From Planctomycetia bacterium (GTDB lineage: Bacteria; Planctomycetota; Phycisphaerae; UBA1845; UTPLA1): a DNA stretch of 64,000 nt. Below, piece after piece: positions 28,806 through 31,341 of this stretch (positions are counted from its first letter, which is position 1; every line of letters begins with the position of its first letter). Made by a program: the position numbers and the translations under genes. The stretch is from assembly GCA_015200345.1 (NCBI GenBank), contig CP054187.1, positions 2,030,470 to 2,094,469 of the forward strand. The letters run 5' to 3'. The notes under the pieces were generated by a model. It made no database searches. It saw nothing but the letters and a program-made list of their open reading frames with translations, and had not been told where the DNA came from.

Positions 28806-29891
28806 CTACGGTTGGCCCGGCGATTGAATCGCGTCAAGCAGCCGGCGAGCCACGGACTCCTCCGATTCGTCGGCGGTCACATCCACCCAGCGGGTCATCG
28901 GAAACTTGCGGAACCACGTGCGCTGGTGCTTGGCGAGCCGCCGCGTGTTGATCTTGATCTGTTCGATGGCGTCGTCCAGCGAGCATTCGCCACGAAGGTG
29001 CGCGAGGATCTCCGCGTAGCCGACGGCCTGGCGGGCCTGGTCGCTTAGCGCTGCCATCGGTCCTCTCCCCCCTTGGGAGAGAGGGTTGGGTGAGGAGGAA
29101 GCGATGCCGGTTGTGTCGTGAGCTTGACCCTCACCCCGGCCCTCTCCCTTGAAGGGAGAGGGTGTTGTTGCAAGGCTCACTTCCTGGGAGGGAGAGGGTG
29201 TTGCATCATCGCGCTGCTCACCCAGCAGCGCGCGCACCTCGTCAACAAGACCCGCGTCGAACATCTGCCGCACGCGCTGATTGATTCGACGCGACGTATC
29301 CTCTTTCTCGCGCCGGATGCCGACCACCACGGCCGGGTAGCGCAGATGGGCCGCGTCCCACTGGGTCTGCATGGCGCTAAGCGGCCGGCCGGTGAGGCGA
29401 TGGACTTCCAGCGCTCGTTCGATGCGTTTGAGATCGTTGGGGTGAATCCGGGCCGCGGCGGCCGAGTCGATGGCCGCCAATTCCGCGTGCAGGGCCGGCG
29501 TGCCTTCGCGCGCGGCTCGCTCGCGCAGCGCCACGCGAAACGCCTCATCGGCCGACGGCCCCTCGAACATCCCATACATGAGTCCCATCAGGTAGAGCGG
29601 CGTGCCGGCGACGGCCAGCACGGTCTTGCCCCGCGCCGTGATGTCTGCAATGGCCGCGTCGGCCAGTTCCACGAATCGCGCGACGCTGAACGATTCGCTC
29701 GGCTCGACCACGTCGATCAGGTGATGCCGCACAGCGGCGCGTTCGGCAGGCGTCGGCTTGGCCGTGCCGATGTCCATGCGGCGATAGACCTGCATGGAGT
29801 CGATGCTGACGATTTCGGCGTTCAGAAGCGGTGCAAGGGTGAGGGCGGCGGCGGTCTTGCCGCTGGCGGTGGTTCCCAGCAGTAGGACCAT
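28806..29891 (-). CDS. miaA: tRNA dimethylallyltransferase with an in-frame repeat insertion
   Basis: MiaA transfers dimethylallyl to A37 of tRNAs reading UNN codons. From the ATG at 29891 it has 361 residues: P-loop GTTASGKT, IVSIDSMQVYRRMDIGTAKP, GTPLYLMGLMYG, and the C-terminal QAVGYAEILAHL and TRRLAKHQRTWFRKF. About 52 residues (226-277) between VDEVRALLGEQ and SDQARQAVGY are translated dispersed-repeat DNA (TPSPFKGEGRGEG, SSPNPLSQGGRG) absent from the family. The frame stays open through it. A GTG at 29933, only 8 bp beyond a TATAGT -10-like box, could be an alternative start. Confidence 0.92.
   Translation of the reverse strand: MVLLLGTTASGKTAAALTLAPLLNAEIVSIDSMQVYRRMDIGTAKPTPAERAAVRHHLIDVVEPSESFSVARFVELADAAIADITARGKTVLAVAGTPLYLMGLMYGMFEGPSADEAFRVALRERAAREGTPALHAELAAIDSAAAARIHPNDLKRIERALEVHRLTGRPLSAMQTQWDAAHLRYPAVVVGIRREKEDTSRRINQRVRQMFDAGLVDEVRALLGEQRDDATPSPSQEVSLATTPSPFKGEGRGEGQAHDTTGIASSSPNPLSQGGRGPMAALSDQARQAVGYAEILAHLRGECSLDDAIEQIKINTRRLAKHQRTWFRKFPMTRWVDVTADESEESVARRLLDAIQSPGQP
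29060..29213. repeat. Dispersed CTCTCCC/GGGAGAG repeat inside miaA
   Basis: About 154 bp with two hairpins: CCTCTCCCCCCTTGGGAGAGAGG region (29062-29084) and CCCTCTCCCTTGAAGGGAGAGGG region (29140-29162), plus a third partial copy GGGAGGGAGAGGGTG (29186-29200). Both families of translated product are known from many bacterial genomes as REP-like dispersed elements. It interrupts miaA without breaking its frame. Confidence 0.75.
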
Positions 29892-29933
29892 GCGAAGTCG
29901 GGACACGTCGGAGTTGGGGAACTGGGCGGTCAC

Positions 29934-30303
29934 AAGCGTGAACTATAAAGTCCGCTGATCTCATGAGATAGTGACGCTCGACCGGGGCGGGAGGAATCTG
30001 GTGGCGAAAGCAAATGCTAAGGCTGAAATGAGGAATAAGCCGGGCGAAGGGGTGGTTTTATTAGTCGGGTGGTCGAATCCCGCAGGGCGGGCACGAACTT
30101 GTTGCAGGATTGTTTCACAGGGTGTTGGCGAAACCGGGGGCAGGATCGTAACGTATGAGTCTCCAGGAGTGTCGCGGGGCTGCGGGCCGGCTGACGGGGC
30201 GCTCGGGTACGAAATGGAAATCAGGCGAGGGATGACAAGCGGCTGCGTGGCCGCGGGGAAGCCCCTGCCGTCGGGAATGCGAGTCGAAAACGGGAGTTCA
30301 ACG
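29934..30303. other. Leader region of the cysteine-rich gene
   Basis: About 370 bp between divergent miaA and the cysteine-rich gene. It contains a perfect 12-bp palindrome ATCTCATGAGAT (29958-29969) and a CCCGC-AGG-GCGGG hairpin (30078-30090). The frame of the downstream gene stays open through it, but the translation has no family features and precedes a clear signal peptide. A long untranslated leader is possible; I recognise no known riboswitch. Confidence 0.4.
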
Positions 30304-31239
30304 ATGATGAAGCGAATGGTCTGTGGGATGCTGGCTGTGGCGATCGTGTGTTGTCTGAGCACGATGACGATGGCCGGGCCGGGTTGCTGCAAGGACAAAG
30401 AGGGCGCCAAAGGGACAACGGCCGCGGCCAAACAGGGCTGCTGCAAGGACGCGGTGAAGGTGACGATGGCGTCGATGAAGGAAGGCTGCTGCTCGAAGAC
30501 GGGCATGCCGACGATGGTGATGAAGGTCGGCGACAAGACGTACAACTGCCCGATGGAGGCCGGCAAGGCGGCCGAGGCGGCCAAGAGCAAGATCGTGTAC
30601 GTCGTGGCCGGTGAAACGTACGACAGCAAGGACAAGGCCGAAGCGGCGCTGGTTGCGGCGTCGGAGGAGTTCATCAGCAAGTTCACGACGATCGCCTGCG
30701 TGAAGGATGGCGAGATCCGCTACTGCAACGACAAGCAAATGGCGTCGTGCAGCAAGACGAAGGCCGCATCCGCCTCCTGCTCGAAGTCGGGCGAGAGCGA
30801 GCCGGCTGTCCAGACGACGAAGGTGAACATGGCGGCGGTGACGGGCAACACCGAGCCGGGCACGTGCAACAAGAACAAGAGTTCGGCGGACGTGAAGAAC
30901 CGCCCGGGCACATTCGTGGCAACCGGCGAGTCGAGCTGCTCGAAGGACAAGGGCATGAAGTTCATGGTGGCGGGCCGGATGTTCGACACGATGGAAGAGG
31001 CGCAGAAGGCGCGTGAGATGGTGCTGGCGGCGATCAAGCCGGTGTCGATGAAGTACATCGTGGACGGCAAGGAAGTGGATTGCGCGTCGAAGGTCTGCCC
31101 GAAGGCGAAGGCCGAGGGGAAGGTGACCTTTGTCGTGAAGAACGAGAAGCTGACCTGCGAGACGTCGGCCCGAATGGCGCTGGTGAAGGCGCAGTACGAG
31201 GCGGCGATGGCGGCGGCGGAGAAGGTGACGAAGAGCTAA
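30304..31239 (+). CDS. Secreted cysteine-rich protein with internal repeats, unknown function
   Basis: A 311-residue exported protein. The signal peptide is MMKRMVCGMLAVAIVCCLST to about Ala24. The mature part has 16 Cys, with three CC pairs in 35 residues (28-29, 46-47, 62-63; the first two followed by KD). Two related blocks recur: VVAGETYDSKDKAEAA (100-115) against MVAGRMFDTMEEAQKA (221-236), and MKVGDKTYNCPMEAGKA (73-89) against VVKNEKLTCETSARMA (277-292). Lys is abundant. Secreted metal binding or redox buffering is a guess. GGGAG precedes the ATG. Confidence 0.8.
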   Translation: MMKRMVCGMLAVAIVCCLSTMTMAGPGCCKDKEGAKGTTAAAKQGCCKDAVKVTMASMKEGCCSKTGMPTMVMKVGDKTYNCPMEAGKAAEAAKSKIVYVVAGETYDSKDKAEAALVAASEEFISKFTTIACVKDGEIRYCNDKQMASCSKTKAASASCSKSGESEPAVQTTKVNMAAVTGNTEPGTCNKNKSSADVKNRPGTFVATGESSCSKDKGMKFMVAGRMFDTMEEAQKAREMVLAAIKPVSMKYIVDGKEVDCASKVCPKAKAEGKVTFVVKNEKLTCETSARMALVKAQYEAAMAAAEKVTKS

Positions 31240-31300
31240 GTCCGTCGTCGCAGTGAGCGCCGGATGAAGCATTCGGCGCAGTCGAGACGATTGAACCCAG

Positions 31301-31341
31301 CGCCCGCGGCGTCGTATGCACGTCGCGGGCGTTTTCTTTTT
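31301..31341 (+). terminator. Intrinsic terminator after the cysteine-rich gene
   Basis: CGCCCGCGGCG (31301-31311) pairs with CGTCGCGGGCG (31321-31331), one mismatch, followed by TTTTCTTTTT. Confidence 0.8.

Follow-up and report, generated by a model that had tools for sequence, protein, structure and literature searches.

A secreted, cysteine-rich protein family with a six-unit hairpin-helix repeat in one planctomycete order, tentatively read as an envelope component

The gene at positions 30304-31239 (+) of a 64,000-nucleotide stretch of planctomycete DNA, here called the window, encodes a 311-residue protein. An earlier note had described it as a secreted, cysteine-rich protein of no recognised family, built from short strand-helix units and possibly engaged in metal capture or redox buffering outside the cytoplasm. 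The questions raised by this locus are what the protein is built from, how widely it occurs, and which role is most consistent with its features.

The gene, the six-unit repeat and the linkers

The open reading frame is genuine: the frame is open over 311 residues, dN/dS is 0.20 against the sister-species orthologue (87% identity), and homologues are present in 16 of the 17 genomes of the source's own family. Constraint relative to the sister species is seen in every segment, including the linkers (dN/dS 0.18). Although the same frame stays open in the 5' direction as far as a GTG at 29971, it is the ATG at 30304 that opens a clear signal peptide. Cleavage is predicted between MMKRMVCGMLAVAIVCCLSTMTMA and GPGCC, and a site of the form xxA/G (cut at the slash) is common to the orthologues as well, which bears out the claim of secretion. 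An antisense frame at 30298-31272 (-) was considered and is regarded as a shadow ORF opposite the gene.

The features referred to in the text are the following, with their window coordinates, strand and, in brackets, the basis of the assignment.

28806-29933, minus strand: miaA (likewise at L034, L038, L041, L042 and L044)
30108-30162, plus strand: upstream block of about 55 nt, candidate promoter or leader element (alignment; near-identical in the sister species)
30304-30375, plus strand: signal peptide, residues 1-24 (sequence; xxA/G pattern in orthologues)
30376-30504, plus strand: N-terminal cysteine-rich linker, residues 25-67, three CC pairs (pLDDT below 50 for residues 1-65; Cys positions)
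30505-30591, plus strand: unit 1, residues 68-96, hairpin and helix, C82 (model, alignment, unit-versus-unit comparison)
30592-30687, plus strand: unit 2, residues 97-128, hairpin and long helix (model, alignment, unit-versus-unit comparison)
30688-30744, plus strand: unit 3, residues 129-147, hairpin and shortened helix, C141 (model, alignment)
30745-30951, plus strand: middle cysteine-rich linker, residues 148-216, predicted to be disordered (pLDDT below 50 for residues 144-211; length varies among relatives)
30952-31044, plus strand: unit 4, residues 217-247 (model, alignment, unit-versus-unit comparison)
31045-31122, plus strand: unit 5, residues 248-273, C260 and C265 (model, alignment, unit-versus-unit comparison)
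31123-31236, plus strand: unit 6, residues 274-311, long C-terminal helix, C285 (model, alignment, unit-versus-unit comparison)
31299-31333, plus strand: hairpin of 14 pairs with a T-rich tail, resembling an intrinsic terminator (consensus scan; by itself no evidence of function)

The upstream block is almost unchanged in the sister species, compared with about one quarter of the gene's synonymous sites being different. No leader RNA family came near its gathering score in a comparison with Rfam.

On the basis of AlphaFold models and an alignment of 28 homologues, by which the units were defined, the folded part consists of six beta-hairpin plus helix units of about 30 residues each, arranged as three two-unit repeats. 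The unit pattern in this alignment is roughly xYxV-x-G-x-x-[FY]-x-[C/x]-x3-A. AlphaFold2 gives the same six beta-beta-alpha units for the window protein and for an orthologue (L056), with pLDDT mostly 80-93 and values below 50 for the linkers in both models; the input was shallow and shared, the same six sequences being used in both runs with a different one placed first. The units are also similar to each other in hhalign, where seven controlled pairs score 20-45 versus maxima of 10-16 after shuffling (40 column shuffles per pair).

The internal symmetry is thus greater than had been claimed, and the two pairs of related blocks that had been pointed out belong to four of the six units. The VAG-x-x-[YF]-D-[ST] block is present at 101 and 222 as described (units 2 and 4). 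The second block, given as K-x-x-C-x3-A (units 1 and 6), is found in this form at 282-289, but residues 78-86 read K-x3-C-x3-A, so that C-x3-A is what the two have in common.

The six units are uninterrupted in the order's other families; in the window's own family a cysteine-rich linker follows the shortened unit 3. A different arrangement is seen in the genus g228 (L141 and L143), where a cysteine-rich repeat linker comes after unit 4; unit 5 and all of unit 6 but its last helix seem to have given way to it.

The mature window protein contains 16 cysteines (a density of 5.6%), with CC pairs at 28-29, 46-47 and 62-63, in agreement by position with the earlier count. It contains neither His nor Trp, and 16 Met follow the signal region. 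In ten members from the order, three cysteines are invariant, one each where the hairpin of unit 1, unit 3 and unit 5 ends (C15, C74 and C131 of alignment A4). Within the window's own family (ten members compared), the cysteines conserved throughout after the signal peptide are two in the linker (C28 and C46) and one each in unit 1 (C82), unit 5 (C265) and unit 6 (C285); the hairpin cysteines of units 3 and 5 are lost in some members there.

The linkers of the 28 homologues, when pooled, are composed of 18% Ala, 17% Lys, 14% Ser and 9% Cys, and the Cys-Cys distances are mainly 1 and 14-18. Their length is highly variable between relatives, the variation arising by tandem repeats, many of which are visible in the DNA (with periods of, for example, 45, 54, 96, 102 and 108 bp). 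An extreme expansion is found at L137 (G489:C201), where a 231-bp tandem repeat lies in the N-terminal linker of a member with 31 cysteines in a 616-residue frame. The total number of cysteines per mature chain ranges from 14 to 39 and is odd in 8 of 14 family members, which means that not all chains close every thiol internally.

Distribution and the VWA-linked form

By profile search the family is present in 71 of the order's 114 genomes and in 50 of the 65 that are of good quality. In a phylum-wide sample it was present in 3 of 392 genomes, the source genome included, and one of the others is the VWA-linked form described below (in G020). The survey of planctomycetes that the earlier note had recommended thus gives a family nearly confined to one planctomycete order. 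A contig scan with the alignment-based profile retrieved five named Planctomycetota metagenome genomes, one of them labelled Phycisphaerae; a single-protein scan of the same genome contigs gave no match, and a search for plasmid carriage gave no plasmid match to the family. The window protein itself was recovered by both halves of the search with alignment A4 (E 7e-15 and 5e-14).

Some secreted proteins of the same order, of about 600 residues, carry a VWA domain followed by a C-terminal domain related to the unit domain of the window protein, for which no family name was found. This form has neither the unit cysteines nor the cysteine-rich linkers. Its carriers are G020, which lies outside the order, and six genomes that all belong to a single family of the order (the loci are L132, L133, L134, L135, L138, L139 and L140). 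Comparison of the stand-alone (A4) and VWA-linked (A5) domains by hhalign gives a probability of 98.3 and an E value of 2.2e-14 over 127 columns, and judged by this profile-profile similarity the two are one six-unit family. Since the VWA-linked domain lacks the unit cysteines, the hairpin-helix domain is an independent module that does not depend on them, and its existence counts against the fold itself being a metal site.

Sequence searches of Pfam, NCBIfam and the PDB, both with single proteins and with alignments, gave no credible match to a characterised family; with this result and the internal symmetry of the models, both conditions that the earlier note had named as refuting it turned out in its favour. 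For the two models, Foldseek against the PDB (best E 2.4 and 3.0) and VIA-align (best Z 2.8 and 2.9) returned nothing usable, and the best E value in a viral structure library was 0.87. The fold searches covered the PDB and viral libraries, and their outcome does not in itself prove the fold to be new. As modelled, the repeat that makes up the folded part seems to be an uncatalogued one.

Expression signals and possible roles

The codon adaptation index (CAI) of the gene, 0.775, is above those of all 19 ribosomal proteins of the same genome that served as reference (0.58-0.75) and of all 43 other ORFs in the window, but codon adaptation serves as a proxy only, and part of it follows GC3, which is 0.91 here compared to 0.82 in the ribosomal proteins. 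An exact TATAAT occurs upstream in 7 of 13 orthologues, versus 0.5 expected; it is absent upstream of the window gene itself. Judging from these signals, the protein is probably made in large amount.

The gene stands alone, and its neighbours differ between loci with the exception of miaA, which adjoins it in six family genomes (confirmed with Pfam) and is mostly transcribed divergently. As a tRNA-modification gene, miaA offers no functional hint and no obvious link. Across the loci inspected, no shared operon partner was seen and, with the neighbours read by eye, no metal-handling gene (transporter or regulator) was noticed beside the gene.

The reading that we tentatively favour, while giving it somewhat less than an even chance, is that of a constitutive, strongly made, exported and thiol-cross-linked structural protein of the envelope or of an extracellular layer. 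It is the best fit to a protein that is exported, probably abundant, found in nearly all genomes of the family and equipped with flexible, evolvable cysteine-rich linkers; the often odd cysteine numbers, the absence of operon partners and the sister form with a VWA domain also stand behind it. The distribution, with 16 of 17 genomes in the family and 50 of the 65 good ones in the order, is like that of a housekeeping part. In this case the folded six-unit domain would serve for assembly or interaction, while disulfides between chains, formed by the linker cysteines (often CC pairs, spaced by about 15 residues), could yield a cross-linked layer. It is important to point out that the CC pairs and the conserved odd-unit cysteines would be suited to soft-metal binding as well, and that the dependence of the CAI on GC3 and the missing TATAAT of the window gene also weigh against this proposal.

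The main alternative, though a somewhat unlikely one, is a secreted trap for soft metals, with Cu(I), Zn, Cd, Hg or As(III) being caught outside the cytoplasm by the paired and hairpin-end cysteines and with a possible trigonal thiolate site made up of the conserved cysteines of units 1, 3 and 5. The invariance of these three cysteines in the ten order members speaks for such a site, but the window's own family sometimes loses those of units 3 and 5, and the domain also occurs without them in the VWA form. Similarly, the 16 cysteines with their three CC pairs, the Lys-rich surroundings of the linker cysteines and the 16 Met would be suitable for soft metals, whereas the mature protein has no His. 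The gene context argues against this role too, since no metal transporter or regulator was noticed nearby and the codon and promoter signals are strong and constitutive-looking, unlike those of a resistance operon. Nor is there a profile link with the metal-binding YHS/TRASH domains.

It is quite improbable that the protein is an extracytoplasmic thiol buffer, or a disulfide-exchange substrate, guarding the envelope from oxidants. While its high thiol content, export and probable abundance agree with this, it has no thioredoxin-like or CxxC active-site motif, and a sacrificial pool needs no conserved six-unit fold under purifying selection.

Comparison with known systems

The YHS/TRASH domains (PF04945) resemble the units in having a hairpin followed by a Cys at the helix start with similar spacing, and they too can occur in tandem in secreted proteins. 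The units differ from them in having a single hairpin-end Cys, followed by x3-A, in place of the three-Cys metal motif C...C-x3-C, and in lacking the DPVCGM part; unit 5 carries C-x4-C where YHS domains have C-x3-C. Membership was rejected, as the profile score of 11.3 lies below the shuffled maximum of 12.2, the profile alignment falls in a different register, and there is no Pfam hit. With this score and register, and in view of the missing DPVCGM part at the N terminus and the missing second Cys of YHS, a degenerate tandem YHS/TRASH protein that retains a metal-binding role is very improbable, despite a G-x-K-x3-C-x3-A spacing reminiscent of the YHS G-K-x-Y-x-F-C-x3-C and the presence of a secreted five-YHS protein in the same genome.

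The latter protein, of 297 residues with five tandem YHS domains (NCBIfam NF041384, 2.3e-45), is encoded at L066:3409-4302 (-), corresponding to about 322.9-323.8 kb of C1 in the source genome. Its neighbours, read by eye, are aquaporin-, methyltransferase- and MerT/HMA-like genes and a MerR-type regulator gene, and the locus is possibly a metal or arsenic resistance island.

The UPF0339 (DUF1508) proteins have a tandem beta-beta-alpha arrangement, as is predicted for the window protein. The VIA-align match to PDB 2k49 is weak (Z 2.4, rmsd 8-10 A over 62-74 residues), and there is no Pfam hit. Metallothioneins are likewise rich in Cys, with CC and CK contexts, but they are small, with very high cysteine density and clustered CxC/CC motifs, and the window protein is unlike them in its 311 residues, its export, its large folded domain and its cysteine density of 5.6%. 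In its linkers, most cysteines stand alone or in pairs at intervals of about 15 residues, in contrast to metallothionein clusters.

An unusual richness in protein and cysteine has long been attributed to planctomycete envelopes. The closest functional parallel may be the YTV proteins (PF07639), which are secreted, cysteine-rich, planctomycete-specific and repeat-built like the window protein, but have a different repeat unit and no sequence match to it. PF07639 was not found in the window protein (searched to E 10) or in 10 members from the order (to E 1). Cysteine-rich proteins are reported from planctomycete walls, YTV only in the Planctomycetales (PMC8567305), and a passage in PMC2754498 cites a protein sacculus with disulfide bonds. 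Among 41 relatives, YTV is present in one, which belongs to family f97; the hairpin-helix family, for its part, has no match in the f97 genomes listed by the family search. This contrast is suggestive, although it comes from one genome. The present family could be a functional counterpart to the YTV wall proteins of the Planctomycetales, a group of proteins almost missing from this order. A more far-reaching version, namely that an undescribed six-unit, pseudo-threefold repeat with odd-unit junction cysteines and expanding linkers forms an order-specific cross-linked layer replacing YTV, we consider unlikely. What the family does provide, as a conserved, probably abundant and cysteine-rich secreted one, is a concrete candidate for a YTV-equivalent component in another planctomycete order.
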